DNA from: Nitrospirota bacterium
GTDB taxonomy: Bacteria > Nitrospirota > Nitrospiria > JACQBW01
DNA length: 64,000 bases
Direction: 5' to 3'
NCBI GenBank assembly: GCA_016194305.1
Contig: JACQBW010000001.1
Location: 1-64,000, forward strand
Shown piece after piece: positions 37,827-64,000 of this stretch (positions within the stretch are counted from its first letter, which is position 1; each line of letters opens with the position of its first letter). The notes beneath the pieces were generated by a model. That model worked only from the letters and a program-made list of their open reading frames with translations. It searched no databases and had not been told where the DNA came from. A program made the translations under genes and the position numbers.

Positions 37827-38819
37827 ATGATATTAGCTGGAGATATCGGAGGCACAAAAGTGGACCTCGCTTTCTTTCAGTCCGACGGGAAGAAATTGAC
37901 GGAGGTACGGCAAGAAACTTTTCGAAGCAGGGAATTCGGCTCTCTGGACGAGGTCATTCAGAAGTTTTGTCTGAATGAACTGCCCCGAATTCAAAAGGCC
38001 TGTTTTGGCGTGGCAGGTCCCGTAGTGGACGGGCGCTGCGAGACGACGAATCTTCCCTGGGTTGTTGACGCCGAAGAAATGAAACATCGGTTTTCAATTC
38101 AATCTCTGTTTTTGTTGAACGATCTGGAAGCAATGGCCTACGGGACTGGCATTCTGGCTGAACATGAAACCGTCATTCTCAACCCGGGAATTCCCCGTAG
38201 TACGGGAAACCGCTGCGTCATTGCAGCCGGTACCGGACTAGGTGAAGCGATCCTTTTCTGGGACGGGACCCGATTCCAGCCTTCGGCCACAGAAGGGGGA
38301 CACTCAGATTTTGCACCTCGAAATGAAATCGAATGGGAACTACTGAAATTTCTGATGGATCAATATCCCAGAGTCAGTTTTGAAAGAGTGCTTTCAGGAC
38401 CTGGAATTTTAAACATTTACCGTTTTTTAACACTGCGTCGCGAAGGTGAAGAGCCTTCCTGGCTGAAGGAATCGCTTGAAAAAGAGGATCCTGCCAGCGT
38501 CATTTCAAAAGCAGCACTTGAATTGAAATCTGAGCTTTGCATCAAAACGATCGATTTGTTTGTTTCAATTTATGGGGCGGAAGCGGGAAATCTCGCATTA
38601 AAGACGATGGCAACGGGGGGTGTCTTTATAGGCGGGGGAATCGGAACAAAAATTTTGAAAAAACTGAGGGAAGGAGAGTTCGTCCGATCCTTTGTCAACA
38701 AAGGCCGGATGTCCTCTTTAATAAAGCGCATGCCTCTCAAAGTGATTATCAATGAAAAAACCGCTCTTCTGGGAGCGGCTCATTATGCTGACGACTTCAA
38801 TTTAGCCAGGGCAATTTGA
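37827..38819 (+). CDS. glk: Glucokinase (ROK-unrelated, E. coli Glk type)
   Basis: About 330 residues of the PF02685 family: ILAGDIGGTKVDLAFFQ phosphate loop, CFGVAGPVVDGRCETTNLPWVVD, LLNDLEAMAYG, IAAGTGLGEAILFWDG, and EGGHSDFAPRNEIEW. It phosphorylates glucose with ATP and so recovers free glucose released by MalQ or GH57 activity. ATG 37827 (MILAGDIGG) is the natural start; the frame is open 75 nt further but that part covers the promoter. The 3' end overlaps glgA by 37 bp on the opposite strand. Confidence 0.92.
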   Translation: MILAGDIGGTKVDLAFFQSDGKKLTEVRQETFRSREFGSLDEVIQKFCLNELPRIQKACFGVAGPVVDGRCETTNLPWVVDAEEMKHRFSIQSLFLLNDLEAMAYGTGILAEHETVILNPGIPRSTGNRCVIAAGTGLGEAILFWDGTRFQPSATEGGHSDFAPRNEIEWELLKFLMDQYPRVSFERVLSGPGILNIYRFLTLRREGEEPSWLKESLEKEDPASVISKAALELKSELCIKTIDLFVSIYGAEAGNLALKTMATGGVFIGGGIGTKILKKLREGEFVRSFVNKGRMSSLIKRMPLKVIINEKTALLGAAHYADDFNLARAI

Positions 38820-40252: not shown

Positions 40253-40479
40253 CTTTTTTTTGACCCCTCGCGCGACAAGATCATTATTTTTGCCTTTCCC
40301 TTCTGTCACAAAAAGGGGGATGATCCGCAGAGTCATTGCGGACCTATCCCCCTACCGACACCCTCTCCCATTTCGGATTAAGGCGTTATGCTTTCACCTT
40401 TCGTCGCGGTCCTGTCAGGAAAAAGGTCCATACCACAAAACCCACTCATAGCATATTCCCTTTTCCCACGCAAAGGATA

Positions 40480-43865: not shown

Positions 43866-44837
43866 TCAACGGGCCAGAATTTGAGCCCATTTCATCCACC
43901 GTAAATCCAGTGGTTTTGGCACCGAGGACATTTTCAAAAGAGGCGTTGAAACAATCTCCCCATTGACCAGGCCAATCAGGTTTCCCCGCTTTCCCTCCAT
44001 CAAAGATTCTACCGCAGCCACCCCCATGCGGGTTGCCAGGAGCCGGTCGAATGCGCTCGGCGAACCGCCCCTCTGGACATGACCCAGCGTGGTGACTCGG
44101 AGTTCAAATCCGATGCGCTGATGATGTTCCTTGAAATAGGCCGCAATTTCGGCCGCTTTGAAGCGTACTCCTTCCGCAACGACCGCAATCGCATGGGCTT
44201 TTCCCCGATCGTAAGCCGCACGAAGTTCGGATGCAATCACTTCCGGTTCGAACGGAACTTCCGGAATGGCGACCACTTCGGCGCCTCCCGCAATGCCGAT
44301 CATCAGGGCCAGATATCCACAGTTCCTTCCCATCACTTCCACGAGAAAGGCCCTATTGTGAGATGACGCCGTGGTTTTAATTCGATCGACCGCCTCCAAC
44401 GCGGTATTGATCGCCGTATCGACGCCAATAGAGATGTCGCACCCCGGCAGATCATTATCAATGGTTGACGCTACGCCAACCACAGGAAACCCCTCGCGCG
44501 AAAGCGCCAGGGCGCCCTGCTGCGATCCGTTTCCTCCAATGACGACCAGCGCTTCCACTTCATTCTTTTCGAGAACGTTCAGCGCTTTTCGCCGGCCCGA
44601 ATCCGTTTCAAATTCCGGACAACGGGCACTTCCCAGAATGGTCCCGCCCCTTTCGATAATTCCACCCACGTCCCGGTCCCCGAGGTGTCTTAACTCCCCC
44701 TTGATCAAACCCGAAAATCCATGGCAAAATCCGACAACTTCTATCCCCTCAGCCGCTGAAATTCGGGTCACCGCACGGATCGCGGCATTCATTCCCGGAG
44801 AATCCCCACCGCTTGTCAGAATGCCAATTTTTTTCAT
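43866..44837 (-). CDS. pfkA: 6-phosphofructokinase (variant active site)
   Basis: A 323-residue PfkA-family protein: ILTSGGDSPGMNAAIRAV, IVGSARCPEF-like ILGSARCPEFE, catalytic STIDNDLPGCDISIGVDTA with Asp residues near 127 and 129, VEVMGRNCGYLAL, and LGHVQRGGSPSAFDR. The ATP/Mg motif is GGNGS instead of GGDGS: residue 103 is Asn rather than Asp. Gly at 104 agrees with ATP, not pyrophosphate, as phosphoryl donor. It phosphorylates fructose-6-phosphate in glycolysis and completes the path from the glycogen genes. Confidence 0.9.
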   Translation of the reverse strand: MKKIGILTSGGDSPGMNAAIRAVTRISAAEGIEVVGFCHGFSGLIKGELRHLGDRDVGGIIERGGTILGSARCPEFETDSGRRKALNVLEKNEVEALVVIGGNGSQQGALALSREGFPVVGVASTIDNDLPGCDISIGVDTAINTALEAVDRIKTTASSHNRAFLVEVMGRNCGYLALMIGIAGGAEVVAIPEVPFEPEVIASELRAAYDRGKAHAIAVVAEGVRFKAAEIAAYFKEHHQRIGFELRVTTLGHVQRGGSPSAFDRLLATRMGVAAVESLMEGKRGNLIGLVNGEIVSTPLLKMSSVPKPLDLRWMKWAQILAR

Positions 44838-49125: not shown

Positions 49126-49554
49126 TTAACGATTCCTCTTTTCTCGTTCCTGATGATGAAAATGCCTTCGAACCTTCGCGGCAATTTGACGGTGGGTCAT
49201 TTTGTCAATGGTTTCCAATGCGACAATCCGGCTTTCCATCTTCTCTTTTACGAGGAGTTTTTTCAGCGCAGTCTTGGCCTCTCCCGGACCAAAAATGAAA
49301 ATGGACTCCGCGTCACCGATCGAGGCAGCAACCGCACCATAGTATATATTAAGATGCCCGGTATATTTTCTCTGGCGCCGATTGTCTGCGGGTACCTGCT
49401 GTGATTCAAAAGGCATGACGGCACGTACACCTCCGGAGCGGCCCGGTTGTTTCTCAACATGGGATATCACCAGCCCCATCTCCTCTCCTTTATCCGAAAT
49501 CGTAACGACAATCGCTTTTCTCTGGTCGATCCATAATCCCACCTTTGTTCGCAT
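49126..49554 (-). CDS. eRF1-domain-like (baeRF/host-attachment-like) small protein
   Basis: A 142-residue protein: MRTKVGLWIDQRKAIVVTI, QQVPADNRRQRKYTGHLNIYY, ESIFIFGPGEAKTALKKLLV, and ETIDKMTHRQIAAKVRRHFH. This resembles the eRF1 middle/C-terminal-like proteins common beside universal-stress and hibernation genes, sometimes named host attachment or translational machinery proteins. The GPGEAK and DKMT motifs are family-typical. The function is unknown; a link to stalled ribosomes is speculative. GGGAG lies 6 nt before ATG 49554. Confidence 0.7.
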   Translation of the reverse strand: MRTKVGLWIDQRKAIVVTISDKGEEMGLVISHVEKQPGRSGGVRAVMPFESQQVPADNRRQRKYTGHLNIYYGAVAASIGDAESIFIFGPGEAKTALKKLLVKEKMESRIVALETIDKMTHRQIAAKVRRHFHHQEREKRNR

Positions 49555-49750
49555 TCAATTCTCCCTGGTTTCCCGAAATCGTGGTTTAAATTAGAGACTC
49601 TTTTGGAATTTGCAGTTAGAGTATAGAAATGATATCGATCCCTTTTCAAGGAAATTCATAGTCCAAAATTAGAAGATGATCTCTTCAAATAATACGGCTA
49701 TAATTTCAATTTTATTGTCCGACCCTTTTTCCCGGTTTAAGGCGATTCGA

Positions 49751-50752
49751 ATGAAAGCTATGGTAATCCAAAATCGGTCTCCAATCGAAAACAGACCCCT
49801 TCAGCTCGTCGAATTACCGAACCCCGTGCCGGGAGCAGGCGAAGTCCTGGTCCGGGTTGAGGTGTGTGGCATTTGTCGAACGGACCTCCATGTGATCGAA
49901 GGGGAACTGCCTGCCTGCTCTTCAACTCTCGTCCCAGGTCATCAGATTGTCGGTCATATTGCCGGACTGGGCCCCGATGCGACTCGATTCAGACAGGAAG
50001 ACCGGGTGGGTATCGCCTGGCTGAACCGATCTTGCGGCATCTGTCCCTATTGCAGAAAAAAACAGGAAAATCTTTGCGATAATCCCCGTTTCACTGGATA
50101 CCATGTCAATGGCGGTTATGCAGAATACGTCGTGGCTCCGGAAGCGTTTATTTATCCCCTGCCTCCTGCGCTCTCTTCGACGGAATGTGCTCCCCTCCTC
50201 TGTGCGGGCATCATCGGATATCGTGCTTATACCCGATCTGAAATCAAAAGAGGGGAACGATTAGGTCTATACGGGTTTGGTGCTTCGGCCCACGTGGTAA
50301 TACAGATAGCCCAATATTATGGATGCGAAGTCTACGTTTCAACGCGTGGTGAAAAACATCGCGAATTGGCCTCTCGACTCGGGGCGACCTGGGTCGGAGA
50401 CGCACAAGAAACCCCGCCTCAAAAATTGAATGGCGCCATAGTCTTTGCTCCGGCGGGCGAGCTCGTTCCCTTTGCACTCAGTTCATTGGACAAGGGAGGG
50501 ACCTTGGCGCTCGCAGGCATTTATATGAGCCAGATCCCGCCTTTGGACTATGAAAGACACCTCTTTCTTGAAAAAAAACTCTGCAGTGTGACTGCCAATA
50601 CGAGGGAAGACGGAGAGGCTCTTTTTCAACTTGCCAAAGAAGTGCCGATTAAAGTTCATACGGAACTTTTTCCGCTGGAACAAGCAAATGAGGCGCTATA
50701 TCAGCTCAAGTGCGATGGCATTCAGGGCGCCGGAGTTCTCAGAGTTCGGTAA
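49751..50752 (+). CDS. Zinc-dependent alcohol dehydrogenase
   Basis: A 333-residue medium-chain dehydrogenase. The catalytic zinc region is VCGICRTDLHVIEGE...PGHQIVG. The structural zinc loop has four Cys (SCGICPYCRKKQENLC). The NAD domain has LGLYGFGASAHVVIQIA. It oxidises or reduces alcohols and aldehydes in the cytoplasm. ATG 49751 (MKAMVIQ) is chosen by homology with AAGG about 8 nt upstream; the longer frame adds 25 hydrophobic residues. It is convergent with mgtA. Such an enzyme is often found in anaerobic or stress gene clusters. Confidence 0.88.
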   Translation: MKAMVIQNRSPIENRPLQLVELPNPVPGAGEVLVRVEVCGICRTDLHVIEGELPACSSTLVPGHQIVGHIAGLGPDATRFRQEDRVGIAWLNRSCGICPYCRKKQENLCDNPRFTGYHVNGGYAEYVVAPEAFIYPLPPALSSTECAPLLCAGIIGYRAYTRSEIKRGERLGLYGFGASAHVVIQIAQYYGCEVYVSTRGEKHRELASRLGATWVGDAQETPPQKLNGAIVFAPAGELVPFALSSLDKGGTLALAGIYMSQIPPLDYERHLFLEKKLCSVTANTREDGEALFQLAKEVPIKVHTELFPLEQANEALYQLKCDGIQGAGVLRVR

Positions 50753-50808
50753 AGCCAGATCTCCGAGTGACCGAATTGAGCTGTTTTCAATATGCGGCAT
50801 AGCTTTGG

Positions 50809-53346
50809 TCAACTCCAAGCGGCGGCTCGCGACCTCCGATAGAAGAACCTCTTGACCCCTTCGACTGCAAATAGATAAAGAAATACCATTCCCCCAAGAA
50901 TTCCAAAAAATGAAATGGACAGTGGCTGAAATCCAAGATATCCAGCGACGGGAAGATACGGCAGGGCGACAGCAAGCGCAACCACCGACAGGGAGGTGGT
51001 TGTAAGCAGCAGGCTCGGGTGACTTGAGAACATATTCCGCCGGGTACGAATTACAAAGATCACCAACACCTGGGTAGCAAGCGATTCAACAAACCAGCCG
51101 GTATGAAAAAGTGCCTCATTCGCATGAAAAATTGTGAGCATGACATAAAATGTCATAAAATCGAATATTGAGCTTACTGGCCCGACCCACATCATGAAGT
51201 TTCGGATAAAACCCATGTCCCACTCCCTGGGGAGTGCCAGGTCCTCATCATCTACGTTGTCCATGGGAATGGGAAATTCAGAGATGTCGTAGAGCATATT
51301 GTTCAGGAGGATCTGAGTCGGCAGCATGGGAAGAAAGGGCAAAAACAATGTGGCCGAAGCCATGCTAAACATGTTTCCGAAGTTGGAACTTGTCCCCATC
51401 ATAATGTACTTAAGAACATTTTGGAAAGTACGTCGTCCTTCGCGAATCCCTTTAAACAGCACACCCAAATCTTGTTCGAGCATCACCATGTCGGCCGCCT
51501 GTTTTGCAACATCTACCGCGGTATCCACCGATATACCCACATCTGCAGACTGCAGGGAAGGGGCATCGTTGATGCCATCTCCCAGGAAACCCACCACATG
51601 TCCTCGCCTCTTCAAGGCGAGAATAATGCGATTTTTCTGAGCCGGATTGACCCTGCAAAACAGCCTTACACTCTCGACTCGCGCGAGCAAGGCATCATCG
51701 TTCAAATTTTGAATTTCGGTTCCGGTAAGGACACCTGTAACCGGAATGCCGATCTCCTTGCAAACATGGCGCGTCACCAGTTCGTTGTCGCCGGTGAGAA
51801 TCTTGATATTGACTTTTGATTTCTCCAGATCGGCAACGGCTTGTATCGCACTGGTCTTGGGGGGATCAAGAAAAGCCGCAAACCCTGCGAAGACAAGCTC
51901 GGTTTCGTCACTGACAATGGCATGGGGATGGTCAAGCGGTACCGGGCGCCAGGCTATGCCCAGTACCCGATACCCTTCCTTGCTCAATTCTTCAAAAAGA
52001 TTTCCGATCTTCTTTCGGGCTCCGGCTTCCAGTTCAATCAGGAACCCCTGTTTGTCTTCGTATGTGACACAGAGGCGGAGAATATCCTCGGGAGCGCCTT
52101 TTACTGTCAGCATGCGCACGCCGTTGCCCTGAACCAAGACCGAGATCCGGCGTCGTTCAAAATCAAAAGGAACCTCATCGATTTTCTCCCACTGGCTTAC
52201 ACTAACTTCCTGATGCATCAGGATGGCCTCATCGAGCGGGTTTTTGAGGCCGGTTTCGAAATAACTATTAAGATAAGCCAGCTCAAGAACGCGATGACTA
52301 TTTTGTCCGGAATGATCAACGTGCCGTTCGAGCCGAATGCGCGCCTCCGTAAGTGTGCCGGTTTTGTCCGTGCACAACACATCCATTGCTCCCAGGTCCT
52401 GGATCGCTGCCAGTCGTTTGACAATGACCTGTATAGAGGCCATTCGCAAAGCACCTCGGGCCAAAGTAACGGACACAATCATCGGAAGCAGTTCCGGAGT
52501 AAGGCCTACGGCAAGAGCCACGGCAAACAGGAAGGTTTCCAGAAGAGGCCGGTGAAATAGGGCAGTAACAAGCAGAACGAAAAGGACCAATAATAAAGTC
52601 AGACGTAGAATCAGGACGCCGAACTCTCTCGTTCCACGGTCGAAAGCGGTCGGCGGTGGTTTGGTCAGCAAGGACTCGGCAATTTGGCCTAAAGTTGTAG
52701 CGGTCCCGGTGCGACATACGATTACTCTGGCAACGCCACTGATTACGGACGTCCCCATCAACACGGTATTCGAGGAAGCATCAACGACAGCTTCAACGGA
52801 CGGCAAATCGCCGCATTGCTTTTCCACGGGAAACGGTTCCCCGGTGAGCAAAGCCTGATTGACGAACAGGTCCTTGGCTTCAATAATTCGGCCATCGGCA
52901 GGCACAAGATCACCTGCGGAGAGAACCAACACATCGCCTTCCACCAATTCCGTGATCGGAATTTTTTTTTGGATGCCTTGTCGTGTGACTGTAGCACGCA
53001 CCGTAACCTGTTCCATCAGGCGTTCAGCCGCTCGGCCAGCCCGGTGCTCCTGCACAAAATCAAAGGTCACGCTCATGAGGATGATCCCGGAAATGATCAG
53101 GAAACTGGCTGTATCGCCAGTCAACGCGGAAACACCACTTGCCAAAAACAGCAAGATTACCAATGGATTCCGGAAGCGAGAAAGAAACTCGACGACAAGC
53201 GCACGACGCCGTTTAGGGCGCAACCGATTTGGCCCGTTAGTTCGCAGACGAAATGCGGCCTGCGCATCACTGAGTCCATTCAAGTCGGTGTCGAGCGCTT
53301 CGATCAATTGGGAAAGAGGCTGCCCCATATCCGATGCTATCTTCAT
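50809..53346 (-). CDS. mgtA: Mg2+-translocating P-type ATPase (MgtA/MgtB-like)
   Basis: An 845-residue P-type ATPase. It has an N-terminal cation-ATPase domain, LTGEPFPVEKQ (actuator loop, TGE at 168-170), GLTPELLPMIV in the ion-binding helix, phosphorylated Asp327 in CTDKTGTLT, TVKGAPEDIL, and GDGINDAPSLQSADVGISVD. The C-terminal signature SSNFGNMFSMASATLFLPFLPMLPTQILLNNMLYD plus NVDDEDL is diagnostic for MgtA. It imports magnesium with ATP. It is the last gene of a minus-strand series starting at groEL. No leader sensor was identified. Confidence 0.93.
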   Translation of the reverse strand: MKIASDMGQPLSQLIEALDTDLNGLSDAQAAFRLRTNGPNRLRPKRRRALVVEFLSRFRNPLVILLFLASGVSALTGDTASFLIISGIILMSVTFDFVQEHRAGRAAERLMEQVTVRATVTRQGIQKKIPITELVEGDVLVLSAGDLVPADGRIIEAKDLFVNQALLTGEPFPVEKQCGDLPSVEAVVDASSNTVLMGTSVISGVARVIVCRTGTATTLGQIAESLLTKPPPTAFDRGTREFGVLILRLTLLLVLFVLLVTALFHRPLLETFLFAVALAVGLTPELLPMIVSVTLARGALRMASIQVIVKRLAAIQDLGAMDVLCTDKTGTLTEARIRLERHVDHSGQNSHRVLELAYLNSYFETGLKNPLDEAILMHQEVSVSQWEKIDEVPFDFERRRISVLVQGNGVRMLTVKGAPEDILRLCVTYEDKQGFLIELEAGARKKIGNLFEELSKEGYRVLGIAWRPVPLDHPHAIVSDETELVFAGFAAFLDPPKTSAIQAVADLEKSKVNIKILTGDNELVTRHVCKEIGIPVTGVLTGTEIQNLNDDALLARVESVRLFCRVNPAQKNRIILALKRRGHVVGFLGDGINDAPSLQSADVGISVDTAVDVAKQAADMVMLEQDLGVLFKGIREGRRTFQNVLKYIMMGTSSNFGNMFSMASATLFLPFLPMLPTQILLNNMLYDISEFPIPMDNVDDEDLALPREWDMGFIRNFMMWVGPVSSIFDFMTFYVMLTIFHANEALFHTGWFVESLATQVLVIFVIRTRRNMFSSHPSLLLTTTSLSVVALAVALPYLPVAGYLGFQPLSISFFGILGGMVFLYLFAVEGVKRFFYRRSRAAAWS

Positions 53347-53464
53347 TAGCTCGATCTTGGGAAATAAGGGGAAACGGGTGCAAGAGATTTGGATTTATAG
53401 AAACGTAACTTTACCGATCAATACCGATCGAAAGACAATTTGTTCATTCAAGAGGATCCATCCT

Positions 53465-54013
53465 TCATTGCGACTGTTTTTCTGAAACTTCGACGAAACT
53501 GGCCTGAGGACCCTTTTCACCTGATTCTTCCACAAATTGCACTTCCTCCCCTATTTTTAAGCGGTCAAACTCGGCATTTAGAAGACTATTTCGATGGAAA
53601 TAAAAGGTTCGCCCGTCTTCCGAATCCAAAAAACCGTATCCCTTCAAAGAAAATAATTGGGTGATCCGCCCAGGCAAAGTGAGGTTCTCATGGGTTTTCA
53701 CAATACCGCGCTGACGCCGGGCAAATTGCTCTAAATTGCGCCGGGCGGCGTCAAATGCATCTCGAATGGCCACATAGACATCTTCGTTGGCCTTTTGCGT
53801 GATGACTAATTCCTTACCAGGTACCGTGATATCAATTCTTACTTCGTACAAAATCCCCTTATGATGATGCCGGTGGGGCGCTTCCACTACCACCCGGCAG
53901 CCGGTAATCTTATCGTAAAGAGAATCAAGCCCGGCAGCCTTTTCCCGTATATCCATCTCCGCCGCTTCCGAAAGTGACATGTTTCGAACTGTAAGCTGTA
54001 ATGGCATATTCAT
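53465..54013 (-). CDS. Ribosome hibernation factor (HPF/RaiA) fused to a cold-shock domain
   Basis: A 182-residue two-domain protein. Residues 1-105 form the S30AE/HPF fold (LQLTVRNMSLSEAAEMDIREKAAGLDSLYDKITGCRVVVEAPHR, then DVYVAIRDAFDAARRNLEQFARRQRG). Residues 115-180 form an OB-fold cold-shock domain (GRITQLFSLKGYGFLDSEDGRTFYFHRNSLL) with RNA-binding aromatic residues. The HPF part should bind the 30S decoding site in resting cells; the cold-shock part could bind rRNA or mRNA. AGGAGG lies 7 nt before ATG 54013. Confidence 0.88.
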   Translation of the reverse strand: MNMPLQLTVRNMSLSEAAEMDIREKAAGLDSLYDKITGCRVVVEAPHRHHHKGILYEVRIDITVPGKELVITQKANEDVYVAIRDAFDAARRNLEQFARRQRGIVKTHENLTLPGRITQLFSLKGYGFLDSEDGRTFYFHRNSLLNAEFDRLKIGEEVQFVEESGEKGPQASFVEVSEKQSQ

Positions 54014-54096
54014 GCGAAAGCCTCCTCATTTTTGTTCAATCAATATGTCCCGGTTATGAACGATGCGCCTGAGAAAAACCACATGTTGCCTTTGAT

Positions 54097-54507
54097 TTAC
54101 ATCGTGGGAACTTGATTCCTTCCTTTCTCTGCTTCTTCAAATTTCTCCATCTTTTCTAAACACGGAACACAGTAACGAACTACCGGGTCGACCGTGAGGC
54201 GTTTTGACGGAATTTTGGTTCCACAGCTTTCACAGAGGCCATATTTCCCTTCTTCGAGCCGGCGAAATGCGTCCGAAATGTTCTTATAATTCAGGTACCG
54301 CCTCTCCAGAATTTTTCGATCAAATCCTTCGCTCATCTCTTGCGACGCCAAATCTCCGAAATCCATTGGACGATCTAATTTATTGATCAGAGAAGGATCC
54401 ATTTCTCTCCCCAGCTCCTTTTCAATTTCGATCATCTCCTTTTCCCGTAACCCATGGAGCCTTTTGTGCAATGTTTGTTGACGCTTTGAGGTCATCGTGT
54501 TTTTCAT
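54097..54507 (-). CDS. TraR/DksA C4-type zinc-finger protein
   Basis: About 136 residues. An N-terminal coiled coil (TLHKRLHGLREKEMIEIEKELGREMDPSL) precedes the C-terminal four-cysteine zinc finger CESCGTKIPSKRLTVDP...YCVPC (CxxC-x17-CxxC). DksA relatives bind in the RNA-polymerase secondary channel and adjust transcription during starvation with ppGpp. The coiled-coil tip has DPSL rather than the DxxDxA of E. coli DksA, so its activity may differ. ATG 54507 is chosen because GGAGG lies 4 nt upstream. Confidence 0.85.
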   Translation of the reverse strand: MKNTMTSKRQQTLHKRLHGLREKEMIEIEKELGREMDPSLINKLDRPMDFGDLASQEMSEGFDRKILERRYLNYKNISDAFRRLEEGKYGLCESCGTKIPSKRLTVDPVVRYCVPCLEKMEKFEEAEKGRNQVPTM

Positions 54508-54530
54508 TTCTCCTCCCAATAAGTAATCTG

Positions 54531-56162
54531 CTAATACATTCCACCCATTTCTCCCCCCATCCCCGGTGACAGCATTGCCCCTGTTTTTTCTTCAGGCACT
54601 TCAACAATCAGAACTTCAGTCGTTAACATGAGGCTGGAAACGGAAGCGGCGTTTTGCAATGCGCTCCGGGTCACTTTGGACGGGTCGATAATACCCGATG
54701 CCACCATGTCAACATATTGTCCTGTTGCAGCATTAAATCCATAGTTTCCTTTTCCGTTCTTGACATGATCCACCACCGTCGAGCTTTCATATCCCGCATT
54801 GAGAATAATCTGCCGTATCGGCTCTTCCAGAGCTCTTCTCACAATGCTGACACCCCACTGTTGGTCTCCCTCAAGTTTGAGTTTTTCCAAAGCTGAAATA
54901 CACCGGACAAGCGCCACACCCCCTCCCGGAACGATTCCTTCCTCAACTGCGGCTTTGGTTGCGTGAAGGGCGTCTTCCACCCGGGCTTTCTTTTCCTTCA
55001 TTTCCGTCTCAGTAGTCGCCCCGACTTTAATTACGGCGATCCCACCTATTATTTTGGCAAGACGCTCCTGAAGCTTTTCACGGTCATAATCCGAAACAGT
55101 CTCCTCAATCTGGGCTTTAATCTGTTTAACCCTGGCTTCAATCTGCGCAGGATTGCCCGCGCCTTCTACGAGTGTCGTACTCTCTTTGGTCACGGTAATT
55201 CTTTTTGCCTTTCCAAGGTCCGTCAATTTTACATTTTCCAGTTTCAATCCAAGATCTTCAGAAATGACCTTGCCTCCTGTCAGCACGGCAATGTCTTCCA
55301 GAGTTTCCTTTCTCCGGTCTCCAAAACCTGGCGATTTGACCGCCGCGCATTTGAGGCTCCCTCTTAATTTATTGACCACAAGTGTTGCCAGAGCTTCTCC
55401 CTCGACTTCTTCAGCAATGATCAGGAAAGGTCTGCCCATTTGGGAAATTTGTTCTAAAATAGGAACCAGGTCACTCATCGAACTGATCTTTTTCTCACTA
55501 TTCAGGACAAAAGCGTCTTCTAGAACAGTCTCCATTCTTTCCGCATCGGTAAGAAAATAGGACGAAATATACCCCCGGTCAAATTGCATTCCTTCAACCA
55601 CATCAAGGGAGGTGGTCATACTCTTGGCCTCTTCAACTGTAATGACACCATCTTTTCCAACTTTCTCCATGGCATCAGAAATTAAATCTCCAATGGTTTT
55701 GTCATTATTGGCGGAGATGGACCCGATCTGGGCGATCTCTTTCTTGGTCTTGCACGGTTTGCTGATTTTCTTAAGCTCTTCCACAATGAGTTCAACCGCA
55801 TGATTAATTCCCCGTTTGATCTCCATGCTATTGGCTCCGGATGCGGTATGTTTCAGCCCTTCTCTGAAAATAGCCTGCGCCAGGACAGTAGCGGTTGTGG
55901 TCCCGTCACCGGCCACGTCGCTGGTTTTGCTGGCCACCTCTCTGACCAGTTGAGCACCCATGTTTTCATAGGGGTCTTTAAGCTCTATTTCTTTGGCCAC
56001 AGTGACCCCGTCGTTACAGATTAAAGGGGCGCCAAATTTCTTTTCAATCATGACGGTTCTCCCTCCAGGGCCCAGGGTGGCTTTGACCGCGTTTGACAAT
56101 TGGTTTACCCCTCTCAAGACTGAAGCCCTGGCTACTTCACCAAAGAGAATCTGTTTTGGCAT
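54531..56162 (-). CDS. groEL: Chaperonin GroEL (without adjacent groES)
   Basis: A 543-residue Hsp60: [22 protein letters not shown]-site [60 protein letters not shown], and the flexible [10 protein letters not shown] tail. GGGAGG lies 7 nt upstream. No groES precedes it and no CIRCE element (TTAGCACTC-N9-GAGTGCTAA) was seen, so it differs from an ordinary groESL operon and is probably a stress-linked second chaperonin. Its 5' end overlaps a decayed zinc-ribbon gene. Confidence 0.95.
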
Positions 56163-56337
56163 GGTTTAACCTCCCATGATACGTCCTGATAAAATTCCGT
56201 AGACTCAGAAACTTCGCCACAAATTAAACAACGCCATTCCGGGAAACTGAATTTACCAGTGCCATCTCTTAAATCAAGGAACTCTTCTAAAATCATCTGG
56301 CCTTCGCATCTTACACCTTTCTGTCTATCCTAACCAT
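56132..56337 (-). pseudogene. Decayed paralogue of the zinc-ribbon miniprotein
   Basis: On the minus strand just upstream of and running into groEL, the reading frame from ATG 56296 gives MILEEFLDLRDGTGKFSFPEWRCLICGEVSES, clearly related to the intact miniprotein at 61164-61364 (QMIEEQFLDLRDDTGKMTF...WHCLNCGDV). Just upstream the frame gives RCEGQM, but the first Cys of the expected CxxC pair falls in another frame (TGTAAGATGCGA) and an in-frame TAG lies above it. At least one indel has broken the N-terminal half of the zinc ribbon. An alternative is a shortened but still expressed peptide. Confidence 0.55.
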
Positions 56338-56631
56338 GATGTACTGCAATACCGATGCCTTTGAAGAAAGGCACCTGTATTCAACCAGGCTTAAAATGCC
56401 ATTACTCTAAAAAAACAATGTGTTGGCTGTGATAGCGACCAGAAAAAATGTGTCGGGCCTATGAATATTCGTCCTGGCAGCCGGAATTAAACTGTCTAAT
56501 CAATTTGACAGCAAAACCGGATTCAAAATTATTTTTATTGATATGCCTGAGTATACGTGCTTCTTTAGATTATCCAGTTTTCTAGACACCTCATGGTGTA
56601 TTGTTTCACTGTCAGGTTGGAATATATTGAT
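56338..56631. other. Intergenic region with inverted repeat CTGTC-N10-GACAG
   Basis: The stretch between the decayed miniprotein and the kinase-like gene contains the inverted repeat CTGTC (56492-56496) and GACAG (56507-56511), with TTGACA at 56505-56510 that could be a -35 box. No good -10 box follows. I see no other gene. Confidence 0.35.
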
Positions 56632-57678
56632 ATGAAAAAGATAACCAGTCAAAAACACTGCGGTTCCGAAATAACGTTAGAATCCAAGTTAGAATTTCTA
56701 AAGCACCCGGAAAACTATCCAGACGACCCGGGCAAAATAGAAATTGTGGAGACACATATGTCGTGGGTGTTCCTGACGAAAGGTCATGCCTACAAGTTAA
56801 AAAAACCGGTTAGATATGAGTTTCTTGACTTCAGCACCGTCGACGCACGGCATCACAATTGCGAGGAAGAATTAAGGTTGAATCGTCGTTTGGCGCGCGA
56901 CGTTTACATCGGGGTATTGGCGCTTACCGCCGATGCAGCGGGCAAATTACACTTCGGCGGGGAATCAACACCCATTGACTGGCTGGTCAAAATGCGTCGC
57001 CTTCCTGCGGAAAAAATGCTCGACTATGTTATAAAAACTCGAACCGTCCGCAATAGAGATGTTGCCCGGACAATCTTGATCCTATCTCATTTCTATAAGG
57101 GATCTTCTCCCGTCGAGATGAGCCGGTCCGAATACAGACAGAACTTCGAATCAAATATACAGGCAAGTTATCAGGAAATCACATCACCTGCCTATGGGAT
57201 GCCCGGCGAATTGGCATCAGGCGTCTGCGCGGCACAAATGAAATTTCTGAGGCGAGAAATCGAAATGTTCGACAGGCGCGTTCAAGAAGGAAGAATTGTC
57301 GAGGGGCATGGCGATTTGAGACCAGAACACATTTGCCTTGAAACCGAACCCGTCATTATCGATTCCCTGGAGTTTAATCGGGAGTTCAGAATTCTCGATC
57401 CGGCGGATGAACTCTCTTTTCTGGCACTGGAATGCGAGGTGCTCGGTGCCCTGCCGCCTTTAATAAACCTTATTTTTAAAACCTATGCCCGGATCACGGG
57501 TGACATTCCACCTGAAAAATTAGTCCAATTCTATATGAGTCATCGGGCCAGTCTGAGGGCCAAACTGGCCATATGGCACCTCCGGGAACCTAAAATACAG
57601 AATATTTCGAAATGGCTCTCCCAGACACGGAAATATCTCGATCTGGCCGCTGAGCATATTGGAAAAGCGAATGCGTGA
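56632..57678 (+). CDS. COG2187 aminoglycoside-phosphotransferase-like protein
   Basis: About 348 residues. ETHMSWVFLTKGHAYKLKKPVRYEFLDFSTVDAR...CEEELRLNRRLARDVYIGVLAL is the COG2187 N-terminal module. A kinase-like active loop reads VEGHGDLRPEHICLETEPVIIDSLEFNREFRILDPADELSFLALECE (HGD plus Asp in DSLEF). In M. tuberculosis Rv2004c a similar module is joined to a C-terminal P-loop kinase, which is absent here. The substrate is unknown; the aminoglycoside name reflects only the fold. ATG 56632 (MKKITSQ) is the likely start. Confidence 0.8.
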   Translation: MKKITSQKHCGSEITLESKLEFLKHPENYPDDPGKIEIVETHMSWVFLTKGHAYKLKKPVRYEFLDFSTVDARHHNCEEELRLNRRLARDVYIGVLALTADAAGKLHFGGESTPIDWLVKMRRLPAEKMLDYVIKTRTVRNRDVARTILILSHFYKGSSPVEMSRSEYRQNFESNIQASYQEITSPAYGMPGELASGVCAAQMKFLRREIEMFDRRVQEGRIVEGHGDLRPEHICLETEPVIIDSLEFNREFRILDPADELSFLALECEVLGALPPLINLIFKTYARITGDIPPEKLVQFYMSHRASLRAKLAIWHLREPKIQNISKWLSQTRKYLDLAAEHIGKANA

Positions 57679-57739
57679 GTTTCCTGATCGATTGCATCAG
57701 CGGACATAAAGAGAACTGGTTCTCCCTTAACCTCGATGG

Positions 57740-58726
57740 TCAAGCCTCGAGTAATTCGACAAGGGAACCGCCGGAGTGAATTCTTTTAATGGCTTCGGCA
57801 AACAATGCCGCAGCATCCAGAACCACCACTTTATGTTTGAGAAAGGCAGGTTCAAATCTGGAAGGGAGGATCGTGTTTGTTATCACGACCTTCTCCAGAT
57901 ACGAATCTGCGAGAACATGGCTGGCATCACCGACAAATATCCCGTGCGAGGCGGCTGCATAGATTTTTGAAGCCTCCAGCTCATGACTTGCCTTAGCCGC
58001 CCGTGCCAGAGTTCCTCCGGTGCTGATTAAATCATCAATGATAATAATCACTCGGCTTCCAATTTCGCCCACAAGTGCTTCACCGCTCACAATCCCTTTA
58101 CTCCGGAATTTTTCTAGATAAGCAATGGATACTGTTTTGTCCAGAACTTCGCTTAGCACCTTTCTGAACTGCTCAGCACGCTTGATACCTCCCACATCCG
58201 GCGACATCACAACGACTTCGGCATCCTTCACCAGCGGGGCGAAATACTGGACGAACAGCTTCCTTGCCTCCAAGTGGTCTGATTGGCAACGAAAGGCATT
58301 CTGATAGGCCGCGAGATTGTGAACATCCAGGGTGACGACATGATCTGTTCCTACCGCTTCAAGGAGAGTGCTGATGTAGCGAGTTGTCACAGGATCACGG
58401 GACTGGGATTTTTGATCCTTCCGCGAATATCCCAAATATGGGACAACAGCAGTGACTTTCCCGGCAGAAGAGTCTCTGATAGCACCTATGAAAAATAGAA
58501 GCCTGCAGAGCTTATCATTGACGCTCTGGGACTGATCACTGTGAAGAGACTGGATAACAAAGACGTCTTGACCCCGCACATTAACGAGCGGCCGGGACTT
58601 ATGTTCTCCATCTTCAAACTCCCGTTCTTCATGCTCGCTCAAGGGGATACCAAGATGCGCACTGACCTTTTCTCCAAAGGCACGGCTCGACTTGAGAGCA
58701 AATAAAGTGATCTTTTCAATGCCCAT
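57740..58726 (-). CDS. Atypical ribose-phosphate pyrophosphokinase (PRPP synthetase)
   Basis: A 328-residue Prs family protein: [26 protein letters not shown] (substrate loop), [28 protein letters not shown], and the PRPP-binding [31 protein letters not shown] replaces the usual DLHAxQIQGFF, and the phosphate-binding region has [13 protein letters not shown]. It should make PRPP from ribose-5-phosphate and ATP but belongs to a divergent clade, probably a second Prs specific to this stress block. It converges on the COG2187 gene. Confidence 0.87.
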
Positions 58727-59027
58727 CGTAAGTTTCCATCACTATGCCTGTCAGAATGAATCGCGTTTCTGAGTGTCTTTTAACACAGTAAAAAATAAGA
58801 ATCAAATAGATCCTCCTCGATGCTTACCCATTCCCCTTCTAAATTGAAAATGAAATGACTGTTTGTGTTGATTCCCCTTTTTCTTCTTTGTTACTCTGAA
58901 AAAGGGATCGAATCCCGTTGGAAACAAAATACCCTATTGAAACAGAATTTCAAGATTCAAAAAAATACTTCAGAGATCTGAATTTGTCATTCCGGCCCTT
59001 ATTTAAATACCGGGAAAAGGAGCTTCC
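58727..59027. other. Divergent promoter region with several inverted repeats
   Basis: Between prs (minus) and the hydrolase (plus) lie three repeats: CCCTTTTTC...GAAAAAGGG (58875-58906, 9-bp stem), GGGAT-CGA-ATCCC (58904-58916), and TTGAAA-CAGAA-TTTCAA (58937-58953). One or more could be regulator sites. No gene is supported here; a plus-strand AAGGAG at 59017-59022 serves the following gene. Confidence 0.45.
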
Positions 59028-59672
59028 ATAAAAGAGAAGATATCGGAAGAAAAAGTCACCATCAATATAGCTGATATTTCCCTTGAGGGATCGCTCTGGC
59101 TCCCACAGGAAACAAAAGGAGTCGTCCTTTTTTCTCATGGGAGTGGAAGCAGCCGCTTCAGCCCCCGGAACAATTTTGTAGCCAAACTCCTCCGTCAATC
59201 GGGAATTGGGACTCTTTTATTCGATCTTTTAACGGAGGAGGAGGATATCGCCTATCGAAACCGATTTAATATTTCTCTGTTAACCGAACGTCTGATCGGG
59301 GCCACCTATTGGGTCACAAAACGGCAAAGGCCGAAGCCATTTTCCATCGGGTATTTTGGAGCAAGCACTGGTGCTGCGGCAGCTCTCGAAGCAGCGGCAA
59401 AACTTCCTGTGGAAATCAGAGCCGTTGTGTCCCGGGGTGGACGGCCCGATCTGGCAATGGAATTGCTCCCTTTTGTAAAAGCACCCTCCCTCTTTATTGT
59501 GGGAAGCCTGGACGATCAAGTGATCGACCTTAACCGGGTGGCCTATGATCAGCTCTCCTGTAAAAAAGAAATGGTCATTGTCCCTGGAGCAACTCATCTT
59601 TTCGAAGAGCCTGGGACTTTGGAACAGGTGGCGGAGCTGGCCACCCAATGGTTTACCCACTATTTGATCTAG
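59028..59672 (+). CDS. Dienelactone-hydrolase-like alpha/beta hydrolase with an apparent AUA start
   Basis: A 214-residue alpha/beta hydrolase. The frame is open from a TAA at 59004 to the stop at 59670-59672 and contains ISLEGSLWLPQETKGVVLFSHGSGSS, nucleophile GYFGASTGAAAA, Asp in IVGSLDDQVID and His in VPGATHLF, forming a complete triad. No ATG, GTG or TTG occurs in the first half; the first in-frame one is GTG 59409. AAGGAG (59017-59022) is 5 nt before ATA AAA GAG AAG (59028), exactly where homologues would begin MKEK. Either AUA is used as a start or the ATG was lost recently. Confidence 0.72.
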   Translation: MKEKISEEKVTINIADISLEGSLWLPQETKGVVLFSHGSGSSRFSPRNNFVAKLLRQSGIGTLLFDLLTEEEDIAYRNRFNISLLTERLIGATYWVTKRQRPKPFSIGYFGASTGAAAALEAAAKLPVEIRAVVSRGGRPDLAMELLPFVKAPSLFIVGSLDDQVIDLNRVAYDQLSCKKEMVIVPGATHLFEEPGTLEQVAELATQWFTHYLI

Positions 59673-59864
59673 AATCACGATGGGTTCGGGATTTTTCTAA
59701 AGATAATTTTTCCAAAACAAACTTGTACCCAATTTGTTGCTTTTGAATTTTGAAGATGCTTAAATGTCGCTTAAATCTAGCATTCACTTATCGCCATAGT
59801 CGAAAATCTTTATCCTGCTCCCTCGGATTAAAAGAAAAGGAAACGGAGTCGACCGTGTTAATTG

Positions 59865-60494
59865 ATGTTTAAAAACAGAGAGCATGCGGCCCAACTGCTT
59901 GCCCAAAGACTGATCAAATACCGGGGCAAAAACCCTTTGGTGCTCGCCATTCCACGTGGAGCCGTTCCAATGGCCAAGACCATTTCAGATGCACTCGATG
60001 GGGAATTGGATATCGTTCTGGTCCACAAATTGCGCGCCCCTAATCAACCTGAGCTGGCAATCGGTTCAATTGATGAAAATGGACATGTTTATATCGGCGC
60101 CCATGCGGCCCTGGTCGGAGCCGACGAGTCCTATTTGAAGAAAGAAACCGAAGAACAGCTTAAAATACTCAAACAGCGCAGAAAGCAATATCGACCCGTT
60201 CATATTCCGTTCAACCCGACTAATCGGATCATTATTGTCGTAGATGATGGGCTTGCAACGGGTTCAAGCATGATCGCCGCTCTCAGATCGCTTGAGAAAG
60301 AAAAACCTGAAAAACTGGTCGCGGCCATGGCTGTGGCCTCTTTTGAAGGACTTCAAAATATAAAAACCTATGCCGACGAAGTGGAATGTCTGTTGGTACC
60401 TGAAGAATTTTATTCTGTGGGACAGTTTTTTGAAGATTTTGAACAGGTCACCGACGAAGAGGTGATCCGGATTCTTAACGAAAACCCAGCATGA
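59865..60494 (+). CDS. Phosphoribosyltransferase-fold protein
   Basis: A 209-residue type-I PRTase-like protein: FKNREHAAQLLAQRLIKY, NPLVLAIPRGAVPMAKTISDAL, DIVLVHKLRAPNQPELAIGSID, and the PRPP loop RIIIVVDDGLATGSSMIAAL. In M. tuberculosis Rv0571c a PRTase and a dienelactone hydrolase are one polypeptide; here they are two adjacent genes. It probably uses PRPP made by the neighbouring Prs. ATG 59865 (MFKNREHA) is taken; a TTG 3 nt earlier is in frame. Confidence 0.85.
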   Translation: MFKNREHAAQLLAQRLIKYRGKNPLVLAIPRGAVPMAKTISDALDGELDIVLVHKLRAPNQPELAIGSIDENGHVYIGAHAALVGADESYLKKETEEQLKILKQRRKQYRPVHIPFNPTNRIIIVVDDGLATGSSMIAALRSLEKEKPEKLVAAMAVASFEGLQNIKTYADEVECLLVPEEFYSVGQFFEDFEQVTDEEVIRILNENPA

Positions 60495-60499
60495 GGGGT

Positions 60500-61162
60500 T
60501 TAATAATAGTGACGAACACCGAAAATGAGTGAAAGAGCACATGCACTATTATCCGTCGAAGGTTCGGCAGGAAATCCCGGAATATTCCCGATCACATCGG
60601 ATTTGCCATCGTTCATCTTTAAATCAAATTCGGCGTTGTATACCAGGTCGGGAGTCGCAAAATAATCAATACCGATCCCTCCTTTAAGAGCAAGCGTATC
60701 TTTGGGTTCCATTCTGCAGGGTGAACAGGTGGCACTCAGATCATTGCTTTCTTTAAATGAATTGAGATTGATCCCTACGCCCAGCAGTCCATAAGGCAAA
60801 AGCGGGCCCCTTGGACCGGGATGAAACTCCATCACAGGAATGATTGAAATGGTTGTTTCCTCGCCATAAATGAAATCCGAAGCATTATTCGTGATCGTGT
60901 GTTTCTCCCATTCAATATGTAATCCGGCAGAAAACCTGTTCGTCAGCCCGTAAGTGACTGTTCCGTTGAAGAGAGGGCCTGCTTCTCCCTGGGTTTCATC
61001 AGAGAGTTTTTGCACGTAAATGGAAGGTCCAAGCCTCAATCCGACTCCCCAACTTCCTTCAGTCCCTGCCGCAAAGACCATTGAAGCCATGCACATTAGA
61101 ATCAGAGCCAGACAGCCTGTAATAATGCAAGTCGAAGAATCAACTATTCTATCCGTATTCAA
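60500..61162 (-). CDS. Predicted outer-membrane beta-barrel protein, unknown
   Basis: A 220-residue protein with a signal peptide (about residues 1-32, core ITGCLALILMCMASMVFA) and alternating short beta segments: WGVGLRLGPSIYVQKL, NGTVTYGLTNRFSAGLHIEWEK, LLPYGLLGVGINLNSF, LKGGIGIDYFATPDLVYNAEFDLKMN, and ALSLIFGVRHYY ending in aromatic residues as porin-like barrels do. Two cysteines (SATCSPCR) may form a loop disulfide. The start is TTG 61162, immediately after the zinc-ribbon stop. I do not recognise a named family. Confidence 0.65.
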   Translation of the reverse strand: MNTDRIVDSSTCIITGCLALILMCMASMVFAAGTEGSWGVGLRLGPSIYVQKLSDETQGEAGPLFNGTVTYGLTNRFSAGLHIEWEKHTITNNASDFIYGEETTISIIPVMEFHPGPRGPLLPYGLLGVGINLNSFKESNDLSATCSPCRMEPKDTLALKGGIGIDYFATPDLVYNAEFDLKMNDGKSDVIGNIPGFPAEPSTDNSACALSLIFGVRHYY

Positions 61163-61163
61163 T

Positions 61164-61364
61164 TTAGTTTACGCCAACGACATATTTTCGGCTTCTCGAG
61201 GGGAATGGGGAAGTCTGCTGTTTTCGGTGTGCCTGAATGATGGGATCCGTCACATCCCCGCAATTAAGACAGTGCCACCCATAAAAGGTCATTTTTCCCG
61301 TATCGTCCCTCAGGTCCAGAAACTGCTCTTCAATCATCTGTCCTTGGCATCTTGAACATTGCAT
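61164..61364 (-). CDS. Zinc-ribbon miniprotein (CxxC...CxxC)
   Basis: A 66-residue protein: MQCSRCQGQMIEEQFLDLRDDTGKMTFYGWHCLNCGDVTDPII. Two CxxC pairs 27-30 residues apart should bind one zinc. The remainder is a basic tail (RKQQTSPFPSRSRKY). AAGGAG lies 8 nt before ATG 61364. The function is unknown; similar small ribbon proteins act in transcription or ribosome association. A degenerate copy lies upstream of groEL. It is followed at once by the barrel gene in the same direction. Confidence 0.8.
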   Translation of the reverse strand: MQCSRCQGQMIEEQFLDLRDDTGKMTFYGWHCLNCGDVTDPIIQAHRKQQTSPFPSRSRKYVVGVN

Positions 61365-61814: not shown

Positions 61815-64000
61815 TTAGTGAGGGGAAGGATTTTGCGTTCGACGAATACTTAATCGTCTGAAGTTGTTTTGTCCATCCATGTTTTTTTGTTCTGCCGCCT
61901 TACGGTACCACTTTAAGGCCTCCGCTTCATCTTTAGCTACCCCGTAGCCATTTTCAAGAAACAAACCGAGCATGACCTGCCCATTGGGGTCACCCTGCTC
62001 TGCTGATTTGCGAAGCCACTTCACCGCTTCAACTTTATCCTTGTCCACGCCGAGTCCTTTTGCGTACATCAATCCGAGAAAATATTGTCCAACAGGATCT
62101 CCCTGAGAGGCTGCTTTTAGGTACCATTTCGCGGCTTCGGCTTCATTCTTGACTGCCCCCAGGCCACTGCGATACATCCCGGCGAGAATGACAGCTCCCT
62201 TATTGTTTCCCTGCTCTGCTGATTTGCGAAGCCACTTCACGGCTTCAGCATCGTCTTTAGGTACACCGAGGCCATCATGATACATATTTGCCAGGTTCAC
62301 TTGCCCATTGGGGTCACCCTGCTCTGCTGATTTGCGAAACCACTTCACCGCCGCGGTATCATCTTTCGCCACACCCAGGCCATGATGATACATGACGCCA
62401 AGATTAAATTGCGCACCGGAGTGACCCTGATCGGCAGCCTTTCCATACCACTTCATCGCTTCAGCCTCATTTTTAACAACCCCAAGGCCATTTTGATACA
62501 TCCCCGCGAGGATAACAGCTCCCTTAATATTTCCCTGCTCTGCTGACTTGCGAAGCCACTTCACCGCTTCAGCATCGTCTTTGGCCACCCCGAGACCATT
62601 GTGATACATGAGGGCGAGGTTAAATTGCCCATCGGAGGTACCCTGGTCGGCTGACTTGCGAAGCCACTTCACCGCTTCGGCTTCGTCTTTGGTGATTCCA
62701 AGACCTTGAGAATACATGACGCCGAGATTAAATTGCGCACCCGGGTTACCCTGATCAGCCGCCTTGCGATACCACCTCACCGCCTCGGCCGCATCTTTGG
62801 TCACTCCGAGGCCACTTTGAAACATTAAACCAAGATTAAATTGGCCATCGGAATTACCCTGCTCAGCTGCTTTGCGATACCACTTGGCCGCCTCAGCCTC
62901 ATCTTTATCCACACCGAGACCATGATGATACATGGCGCCCAGGTCAAATTGCACTTTCGGGTCACCTTGCGCGGTTGCTTTACGATACCACCGCATCGCT
63001 TCGGAATCATTCTTGGCCACCCCAAGGCCATTATGATACATGATGCCAAGGTTCATTTGCCCATAGGGATTACCCTGGGCAGCTACCTTTCGGTACCAAT
63101 TGACCGCCTCGGCATCATCTTTAGCAACCCCTAATCCATTGTGATACATGACGCCCAGATTAAATTCCGCACTGGGAGTACCCTGATCCGCCGCCTTGCG
63201 ATACCACTTGACCGCTTCCGCATCATCCTTGGCCACTCCGAGGCCATTATGATACATGACGCCGAGGTTAAATTGCCCGATGGCAACACCCTGCTCTGCT
63301 GCTTTGCGATACCACTTGACCGCTTCGGCCTCGTCCTTCGTTATACCAAGACCTTGAGAATACATTGCGCCAAGATAAACTTGCCCATTGGGGTCACCTT
63401 GCTCAGCAGCTTTGCGAAACCACTTCACCGCTTCAGTATCGCTCTTTTCAACTTCCGCGCCGAGTTGATAAATTTTCCCCAGCAAAACCTGCGATTCAGA
63501 ATCTCCATTCAGGGCATTATTCGAAATAGTTTTTAAAAGTCCTCGATTGCTATCCCAAAATTTACCCATCTCCCTGCGGAATTCCCATAAAATGGGATTA
63601 TTCCTCCAATTCCATAAGCGGTTGCTGGAAAAAATAAAATCATTAATATGAACAGGCACATAATTCCAATTCAATTTATTATAAACGACCAATACTCCCA
63701 CCATTTGAATAAAAACAGACCCGATAAAGAAGAGGTAGAATCCTGTCCAGACGAGAGATTTGTAAGAATATTTGCTCAATAGGGGAATTGACAGGAGCAG
63801 TAACATGGGTTGTATCTCTGAAAGATATCGAGGCCCAAAACTGTCACCTCCCCACCAATATTTGTATTTTGAATACAAGGTAATCTGTAATAAGACAAAA
63901 ATAAATAACACACTAAAAAACGACAAATGAGTATGTTTGTCTCGGACAGCCTTGTAAAAACCAAAAACACCCAAAATGGCCAGTGGAAAATAGATGAAAA
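61815..64000 (-). CDS. Membrane protein fused to 15 Sel1 repeats (5' end outside window)
   Basis: The frame is open to the right edge, so the start is not visible; TTG 63974 is only an internal codon and residues before it (IYFPLAILGV) look like another membrane helix. The visible N-terminal part has at least four hydrophobic stretches and WWGGDSFGPRYLSEIQP, reminiscent of polytopic glycosyltransferase-like proteins. About 540 residues of Sel1-like repeats follow (GxMYxxGLGVxKDxAEAVKWYRKAAEQG). Sel1 repeats mediate protein binding. The C-terminal side should lie in the periplasm or cytoplasm depending on topology. Confidence 0.85.
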   Translation of the reverse strand, partial: FIYFPLAILGVFGFYKAVRDKHTHLSFFSVLFIFVLLQITLYSKYKYWWGGDSFGPRYLSEIQPMLLLLSIPLLSKYSYKSLVWTGFYLFFIGSVFIQMVGVLVVYNKLNWNYVPVHINDFIFSSNRLWNWRNNPILWEFRREMGKFWDSNRGLLKTISNNALNGDSESQVLLGKIYQLGAEVEKSDTEAVKWFRKAAEQGDPNGQVYLGAMYSQGLGITKDEAEAVKWYRKAAEQGVAIGQFNLGVMYHNGLGVAKDDAEAVKWYRKAADQGTPSAEFNLGVMYHNGLGVAKDDAEAVNWYRKVAAQGNPYGQMNLGIMYHNGLGVAKNDSEAMRWYRKATAQGDPKVQFDLGAMYHHGLGVDKDEAEAAKWYRKAAEQGNSDGQFNLGLMFQSGLGVTKDAAEAVRWYRKAADQGNPGAQFNLGVMYSQGLGITKDEAEAVKWLRKSADQGTSDGQFNLALMYHNGLGVAKDDAEAVKWLRKSAEQGNIKGAVILAGMYQNGLGVVKNEAEAMKWYGKAADQGHSGAQFNLGVMYHHGLGVAKDDTAAVKWFRKSAEQGDPNGQVNLANMYHDGLGVPKDDAEAVKWLRKSAEQGNNKGAVILAGMYRSGLGAVKNEAEAAKWYLKAASQGDPVGQYFLGLMYAKGLGVDKDKVEAVKWLRKSAEQGDPNGQVMLGLFLENGYGVAKDEAEALKWYRKAAEQKNMDGQNNFRRLSIRRTQNPSPH
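61881..63506 (-). repeat. 15 tandem Sel1 repeat units of about 108 bp
   Basis: Within the Sel1 gene, 15 consecutive units of 36 residues (first unit 38) repeat the pattern GQFNLGVMYHNGLGVAKDDAEAVKWYRKAADQG with variable second positions. Neighbouring units are very similar at DNA level, so unit number could change by recombination and could also be misassembled. Confidence 0.85.

Follow-up and report, generated by a model that had tools for sequence, protein, structure and literature searches.

Do the stress-related genes crowded into positions 49126–61364 of a Nitrospirota contig form a set serving one resting state and, if so, where did its parts come from? The window is the whole stretch of 64,000 nt that was analysed (C1:1–64000), from the first contig of a genome of 2.27 Mb in 37 contigs and 95% complete; the Nitrospirota are a phylum of environmental, mainly uncultured, bacteria. 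An original prediction, made from the sequence alone, saw in this block a portable resting-state module resembling the DosR regulon of mycobacteria. The idea of a portable module is well supported, because the families of the block co-cluster in relatives of the same class and, together with universal stress proteins (USPs), on proteobacterial plasmids, and the genes for COG2187 and a ribose-phosphate diphosphokinase (Prs) are apparently of horizontal origin. Membership in a DosR regulon, as opposed to kinship with such sets, found no support. The block is probably a reduced and rearranged Nitrospirota version of the low-oxygen gene sets of the lxa, DosR and OsdR type, with a native core, an acquired COG2187-Prs pair and control from outside the block.

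Families were assigned to the open reading frames (ORFs) of the window with Pfam and NCBIfam profiles, and with tblastn in the case of COG2187. On our best reading, the native core consists of a hibernation factor, a DksA-like protein, a duplicated solo GroEL, a dienelactone-hydrolase-type alpha/beta hydrolase (DLH) and a phosphoribosyltransferase (PRTase). The first, HPF-CSD (53465–54013, minus strand), fuses an HPF/RaiA (S30AE) domain (PF02482, E=8.5e-14) to a C-terminal cold-shock domain (PF00313); its score with the NCBIfam yfiA model (27.8) is below the cut-off of 40.9, and the family is spread over the whole class. Second, partial copies of HPF-CSD with an internal TAG were seen in two class relatives (G036:C1:110708 and G050:C1:141947). 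The DksA/TraR-type zinc-finger protein (54097–54519, minus strand) matches Pfam and NCBIfam profiles and retains a DxxDxA-like stretch (DFGDLA) and four cysteines. Next to it is groEL (54531–56162, minus strand; TIGR02348, 832 bits), which is solo, there being no GroES gene nearby, while the two other GroELs of the genome, on C3 and C5, each have an adjoining GroES. The hydrolase gene (59025–59672, plus strand) has an uncertain start codon, with no ATG, and its match to Pfam DLH is sub-threshold (E=0.003), yet it has full-length class relatives at 53–76% identity, the highest value being that of the closest relative, G001. Adjacent to it, as predicted, is the PRTase gene (59862–60494, plus strand; Pfam, 70 bits), with the PRPP loop VVDDGLATGSS.

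The putatively acquired pair lies between these genes. COG2187 (56593–57678, plus strand) codes for a stand-alone kinase-like protein without a Pfam or NCBIfam match; it was identified by tblastn to annotated aminoglycoside-phosphotransferase/AAA proteins, with 38–46% identity to plasmid copies, and conserves the HGDL...IIDSLEF motif, as read from the sequence, but lacks the AAA half. The second, atypical prs (57740–58726, minus strand; TIGR01251, 264 bits) is convergent with it at a distance of ~60 bp, and the housekeeping Prs of this genome is encoded on C15. At the other side of the core are a zinc alcohol dehydrogenase (ADH) of the TIGR02822 type (49676–50752, plus strand; 400 bits), whose true start is probably near 49751, since class relatives, with up to 68% identity, align mostly from residue ~22–25, and a P-type cation ATPase (50809–53346, minus strand). 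The latter is of the Mg2+-translocating MgtA type (TIGR01524, 907 bits against a cut-off of 611) and scores below the cut-off of the PMR1-type Ca2+ model (404 against 798), which rules out a CtpF-type Ca2+ pump and the parallel with CtpF that had been drawn. For ADH, the P-type ATPase and the HPF-like, DksA-like, GroEL, second Prs and PRTase proteins, the families originally proposed have firm profile matches.

For a survey of linkage, seven families were located in 58 whole genomes of the class, of which 57 remained after excluding that of the window, and their distances were compared with a uniform random placement of genes; positions were transcribed from the search tables, and contig breaks render the counts conservative. 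HPF-CSD and DLH genes are within 15 kb of each other in 8 of 24 genomes (0.23 expected), PRTase and DLH in 7 of 26 (0.28 expected), and HPF-CSD and PRTase in 5 of 31 (0.32 expected), the latter rising to 16 of 31 within 100 kb (2.15 expected). Likewise, HPF-CSD and the Mg2+ ATPase are within 30 kb in 7 of 18 genomes, with 0.35 expected. Pairs of these families are thus neighbours in other genomes much more often than under random placement, and their clustering is not due to chance. The gene order of individual genomes illustrates this: COG2187, lxa_BCAM0308, PRTase, DLH, a Prs-type gene, DksA, HPF-CSD and a P-type ATPase are found in ~42 kb of the 3.6-Mb genome of G007, from another family, and GroEL, DLH and HPF-CSD are consecutive in G001. 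HPF-CSD adjoins PRTase in five genomes (G046, G044, G004, G042 and G050) and DksA in three (G012, G016 and G007). PRTase and DLH form a single open frame in three class relatives (G042:C1:909479–910864, G036:C1:1677339 and G020:C1:7392), resembling the fusion of both in Rv0571c, a parallel that the original prediction had also drawn. Gene lxa_BCAM0308 (NCBIfam NF040826) occurs in 28 of the 58 class genomes, but in none of 14 control genomes, and adjoins PRTase in 18 of the 27 class genomes carrying both. In the neighbourhoods fetched, USP-family genes are near HPF-CSD in ~10 other genomes, and its neighbours across relatives also include Hsp20, P-type ATPases and Lon-like proteases.

Most of the block families recur, moreover, within ~30 kb on plasmids of alpha- and betaproteobacteria, together with USPs. 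These clusters were reached by tblastn with COG2187, HPF-CSD and PRTase, and, being chosen from the best matches, serve as examples and not as an estimate of frequency. In Azospirillum brasilense, ~30 kb contain genes for the Mg2+ ATPase, ADH, USPs, COG2187, Prs, NAPRT, BCAM0308, Hsp20, PRTase, ppsA and HPF, plus a Crp/Fnr regulator; identity to the window products is 58% for MgtA, 49% for ADH, 45% for COG2187, 52% for Prs, 40% for PRTase and 54% for HPF. Cupriavidus oxalaticus has PRTase, NAPRT, GroEL, BCAM0308-like, DLH, DksA-like and COG2187 genes in 12 kb. The order GroEL (minus), COG2187 (plus), Prs (minus) of the window is kept on plasmids of Sinorhizobium fredii, S. sojae and Ensifer adhaerens, with a USP gene, absent from the window, in the GroEL-COG2187 gap of S. 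fredii and E. adhaerens. Thus, pSF45436d from S. fredii, typed as conjugative, carries baeRF_family12, USP, Hsp20, glucokinase, ppsA, ATPase inhibitor, groL (minus), USP (plus), COG2187 (plus) and prs (minus) genes. The clusters from Sinorhizobium, Ensifer, Bosea and Azospirillum share with the block overlapping subsets of solo GroEL, COG2187, Prs, PRTase, ADH, Mg2+ ATPase and HPF; unlike it, they have USPs between or beside these genes, a GroEL of another lineage and, in two of them, Crp/Fnr genes.

Of the known systems, the lxa locus is a closer comparison than the DosR regulon, because the class relatives carry its signature gene NF040826 beside PRTase. This locus of Burkholderia is activated by low oxygen, its proteins rise over chronic infection, and it contains a zinc ADH (BCAM0299), an MBL-superfamily protein (BCAM0300), BCAM0308, a phosphofructokinase, a heat shock protein and six USPs (content as given in PMC6127331). 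A zinc ADH is encoded in the block, and several class relatives have USP and Hsp20 genes nearby. In contrast, the block has no USP, Hsp20 or BCAM0308, which are found elsewhere in the genome (C11, C23, C3 and C37, with a further Hsp20 at window position 13970), and contains solo GroEL, COG2187-Prs, the Mg2+ ATPase and HPF-CSD, which may be additions relative to the lxa locus. In the OsdR region of Streptomyces coelicolor (SCO0167–SCO0219), clustered USPs and an alcohol dehydrogenase are under a DevR-like regulator (PMC5069765). The alcohol dehydrogenase is common to the block, which lacks its nitrate reductase and OsdRK; a plasmid cluster of S. fungicidicus, with a COG2187-AAA protein, ADH, NAPRT and a P-type ATPase, is similar to this region.

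Likeness to the DosR regulon consists of functional parallels, with Rv0079 (a ribosome-associated factor), Rv0571c (PRTase), Rv2004c and Rv1997. The block differs in having no excess of DosR boxes, no nitroreductase or USP and, among the ORFs scanned, no DosR/DosS, as well as an ATPase of another class and a COG2187 protein without the AAA half. As originally noted, there is no USP gene in the window; five USP-domain matches are distributed over four places elsewhere in the genome, on C11, C23 and C3. On C11, a zinc-ribbon paralog, Hsp20, USP and an MBL exonuclease-type protein are encoded in a row, and on C37 a P-type ATPase adjoins lxa_BCAM0308 (C37:86561). With USP, Hsp20 and lxa_BCAM0308 on other contigs, the set is dispersed, as is the DosR regulon of Mycobacterium tuberculosis, whose genes are scattered over nine blocks (PMC5309233).

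From what is known of the families and from published work (PMC6127331, PMC6515984, PMC5069765 and PMC10901736) we infer a resting-state programme in which the genes of the block are co-expressed, with failing respiration or energy as the likely trigger. HPF-CSD would then park and protect ribosomes, the DksA-like protein would reduce rRNA transcription, and the Mg2+ ATPase could keep the cytosolic Mg2+ needed for ribosome stability. The solo GroEL may hold unfolding proteins, and ADH may serve as a sink for reducing equivalents. From PRPP and the bases freed by RNA turnover, the extra Prs and the PRTase/hydrolase pair could rebuild nucleotides, with COG2187 possibly phosphorylating some small molecule. 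Induction by low oxygen is suggested by analogy with related sets, for which it has been published in Burkholderia, Bradyrhizobium and mycobacteria. In Bradyrhizobium, microoxia raises the levels of Prs, USP, host-attachment, PEP-synthase and PFK-type proteins (PMC6515984). Control would be exerted by a factor encoded outside the block, for which a group-2 sigma-70 factor (14561–15490; regions 1.2, 2 and 4), adjacent to the Hsp20 gene (13970–14419), and a GAF-PAS hybrid histidine kinase without a DNA-binding domain, just outside the window (C1:66240–68261; L036:4240–6261), are candidates. PAS kinases were also seen near HPF-CSD in several relatives.

Several observations weigh against this reading. 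Related genomes are not independent, so linkage was recomputed with one genome per family, and the median p was then only ~0.002–0.06 for the best pairs; the linkage of HPF-CSD with the Mg2+ ATPase derives from a single family, to which all seven genomes belong. In most of 80 loci retrieved around HPF-CSD from species genomes, other phyla included, few or none of the families are nearby, and HPF-CSD alone does not, therefore, define the module. The block itself contains no USP, Hsp20 or regulator gene. Scans for FNR, DosR and sigma-54 boxes gave counts at or below chance (for instance, 23 DosR-box palindromes with up to three mismatches in the window versus 24.6 expected), and when 11 intergenic regions were searched for dyads, none recurred exactly in more than two of them and there was no common palindrome, so that no shared promoter motif was found. 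The original prediction of a window without DosR/DosS agrees with our scan, which found no DosR/DosS-type or Crp/Fnr gene among the window ORFs covered, the rest of the genome not having been searched for a DosR/DosS pair.

The same module might instead respond to starvation or stationary phase, through the stringent response or a group-2 sigma factor, and not to low oxygen. We regard this trigger as possible but rather unlikely: the DksA-like and HPF genes would suit a stringent response, the group-2 sigma factor beside Hsp20 and the glycogen metabolism cluster (26.7–40.3 kb) point in the same direction, and neither FNR nor DosR boxes are in excess, but the related sets of Burkholderia and Bradyrhizobium respond to oxygen and Crp/Fnr regulators are present in two of the plasmid clusters. 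The glycogen/starch cluster, upstream of the block (26696–40336), encodes a branching enzyme, a GlgC-type protein, phosphorylase, 4-alpha-glucanotransferase, GH57, glucokinase and starch synthase.

That stress and housekeeping genes without any relation came together here by chance is very improbable, since linkage in other genomes far exceeds expectation, the same combinations recur on plasmids of another phylum and gene order is conserved on those of Sinorhizobium; yet it would be in keeping with the mixed strands, the lack of a shared motif in our scans, and the fact that GroEL, ADH and other members belong to common families.

The placement of the individual proteins indicates that the parts of the block differ in origin. 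In maximum likelihood trees, rooted at the midpoint only, the window COG2187 groups with ten stand-alone plasmid copies (support 100/100), apart from Nitrospirota COG2187 proteins, and the window Prs with nine plasmid Prs (support 95/99), apart from the housekeeping Prs of Nitrospirota; accordingly, its identity is 45–52% to plasmid Prs and at most 40% to the housekeeping Prs of the class. Both trees are near-congruent, with Paraburkholderia phymatum outermost, followed by the window and then the remaining plasmids, the forks beside the window having supports of 87/83 and 94/88. Homologs of COG2187 at E≤1e-52 were not found in the other 395 of 396 Nitrospirota genomes sampled. The simplest reading of these sequence comparisons is that COG2187 and Prs were apparently gained jointly by horizontal transfer, its direction not being proven. 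The window GroEL, however, groups with a Nitrospirota copy (G001_C50; support 94/97, 84% identity), shows 79% identity to the C3 copy of its own genome and only 49–56% to plasmid GroELs, and by its placement is a native duplicate. Because neither the window GroEL nor those of the plasmids have an adjoining GroES and they fall apart in the tree, the solo GroEL was apparently an independent recruitment. For HPF-CSD, DLH and PRTase as well, the class relatives are a closer match than the plasmid copies. Acquisition of the whole block in one piece from a proteobacterial plasmid, which COG2187 and Prs, nesting with or among plasmid copies, would by themselves allow, is hence highly improbable, all the more as no repeats flanking the block were found and no integrase was detected among the ORFs scanned. 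No relative was present in viral contigs.

Neither the individual families nor this general kind of gene set is new, but we found no description of such a set in Nitrospirota, of the apparent joint gain of COG2187 and Prs, of an independent solo GroEL, or of missing local USPs and regulator. Genes for ribosome hibernation, chaperones, Mg2+ and PRPP have mostly been studied singly; their recurrent clustering with one another in Nitrospirota, Alpha- and Betaproteobacteria, together with the independent solo GroEL and the apparent co-transfer of COG2187 and Prs, argues for one physiological state. For the uncharacterised COG2187 family, Prs now stands as a concrete partner, in a setting that lends itself to tests, and the presence of the set on plasmids of rhizobia and Azospirillum makes genetics feasible there. 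More tentatively, it is conceivable that a single mobile resting-state gene set extends across distant phyla with its parts swapped independently, COG2187-Prs as a unit, the solo GroEL from the stock of the host, and the regulator being the oxygen or energy sensor of the host itself; in that case, COG2187 and Prs would have linked substrates in PRPP metabolism during stasis.

The notion of a nucleotide-salvage or defence island, built on PRTase, Prs, the hydrolase and small proteins, has a weak PADLOC match of PRTase (E=1.8e-5) in its favour but can practically be dismissed, because the PADLOC matches, to PRTase and the cold-shock domain, are partial and generic, and USP, Hsp20, P-type ATPases and Lon-like proteases are among the neighbours in relatives.

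At the edge of the block, the ORF at 49126–49554 (minus strand) encodes a 142-aa protein that had been proposed to be eRF1-like. It has no Pfam or NCBIfam match, and a PDB sequence search and hmmsearch over the collected loci were also negative; hhalign against true baeRF_family12 proteins gave 1.4%, and a single-sequence AlphaFold model had a pLDDT of 45, with an unusable fold. The eRF1-like identity is consequently not confirmed, leaving the family unassigned. A hibernation role beside HPF, as for the aeRF1-like Balon/Rv2629, would have fitted an eRF1-like protein. Balon genes frequently neighbour RaiA, but the protein consists of three domains, and its survey left out sequences shorter than 300 aa (PMC10901736); neither sequence nor fold evidence links the 142-aa protein to it. 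No homolog was seen in the 57 class relatives; those found, at 64%, 46% and 38% identity, are all on cyanobacterial plasmids. Of two such loci (L170 and L171), one adjoins recombinase and transposase genes and the other is near genes for phosphoketolase and a polyphosphate kinase (PPK2).

Other features of the window are of less certain relation to the block. A 6-phosphofructokinase gene (43866–44837, minus strand; PF00365, 362 bits) is a possible outlying member, with homologs at 68–69% identity situated 7–8 kb from HPF-CSD in two relatives (L083 and L095). An Rfam scan detected two tRNAs and nothing else. The Sel1-repeat protein encoded at 61815–63998 contains 15 Sel1 stretches, with a repeat period of 108 nt. 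Finally, the block ends in a gene for a 66-aa zinc-ribbon protein (61164–61364, minus strand), with homologs near HPF-CSD in four loci (L046, L048, L049 and L053). It belongs to a small family in this genome that also includes a paralog with 54% identity beside Hsp20-USP (C11:7920; L038:7920–8120) and a degenerate relic upstream of groEL (56132–56330, minus strand), which resembles it by eye but has lost the first CxxC and any clear start.

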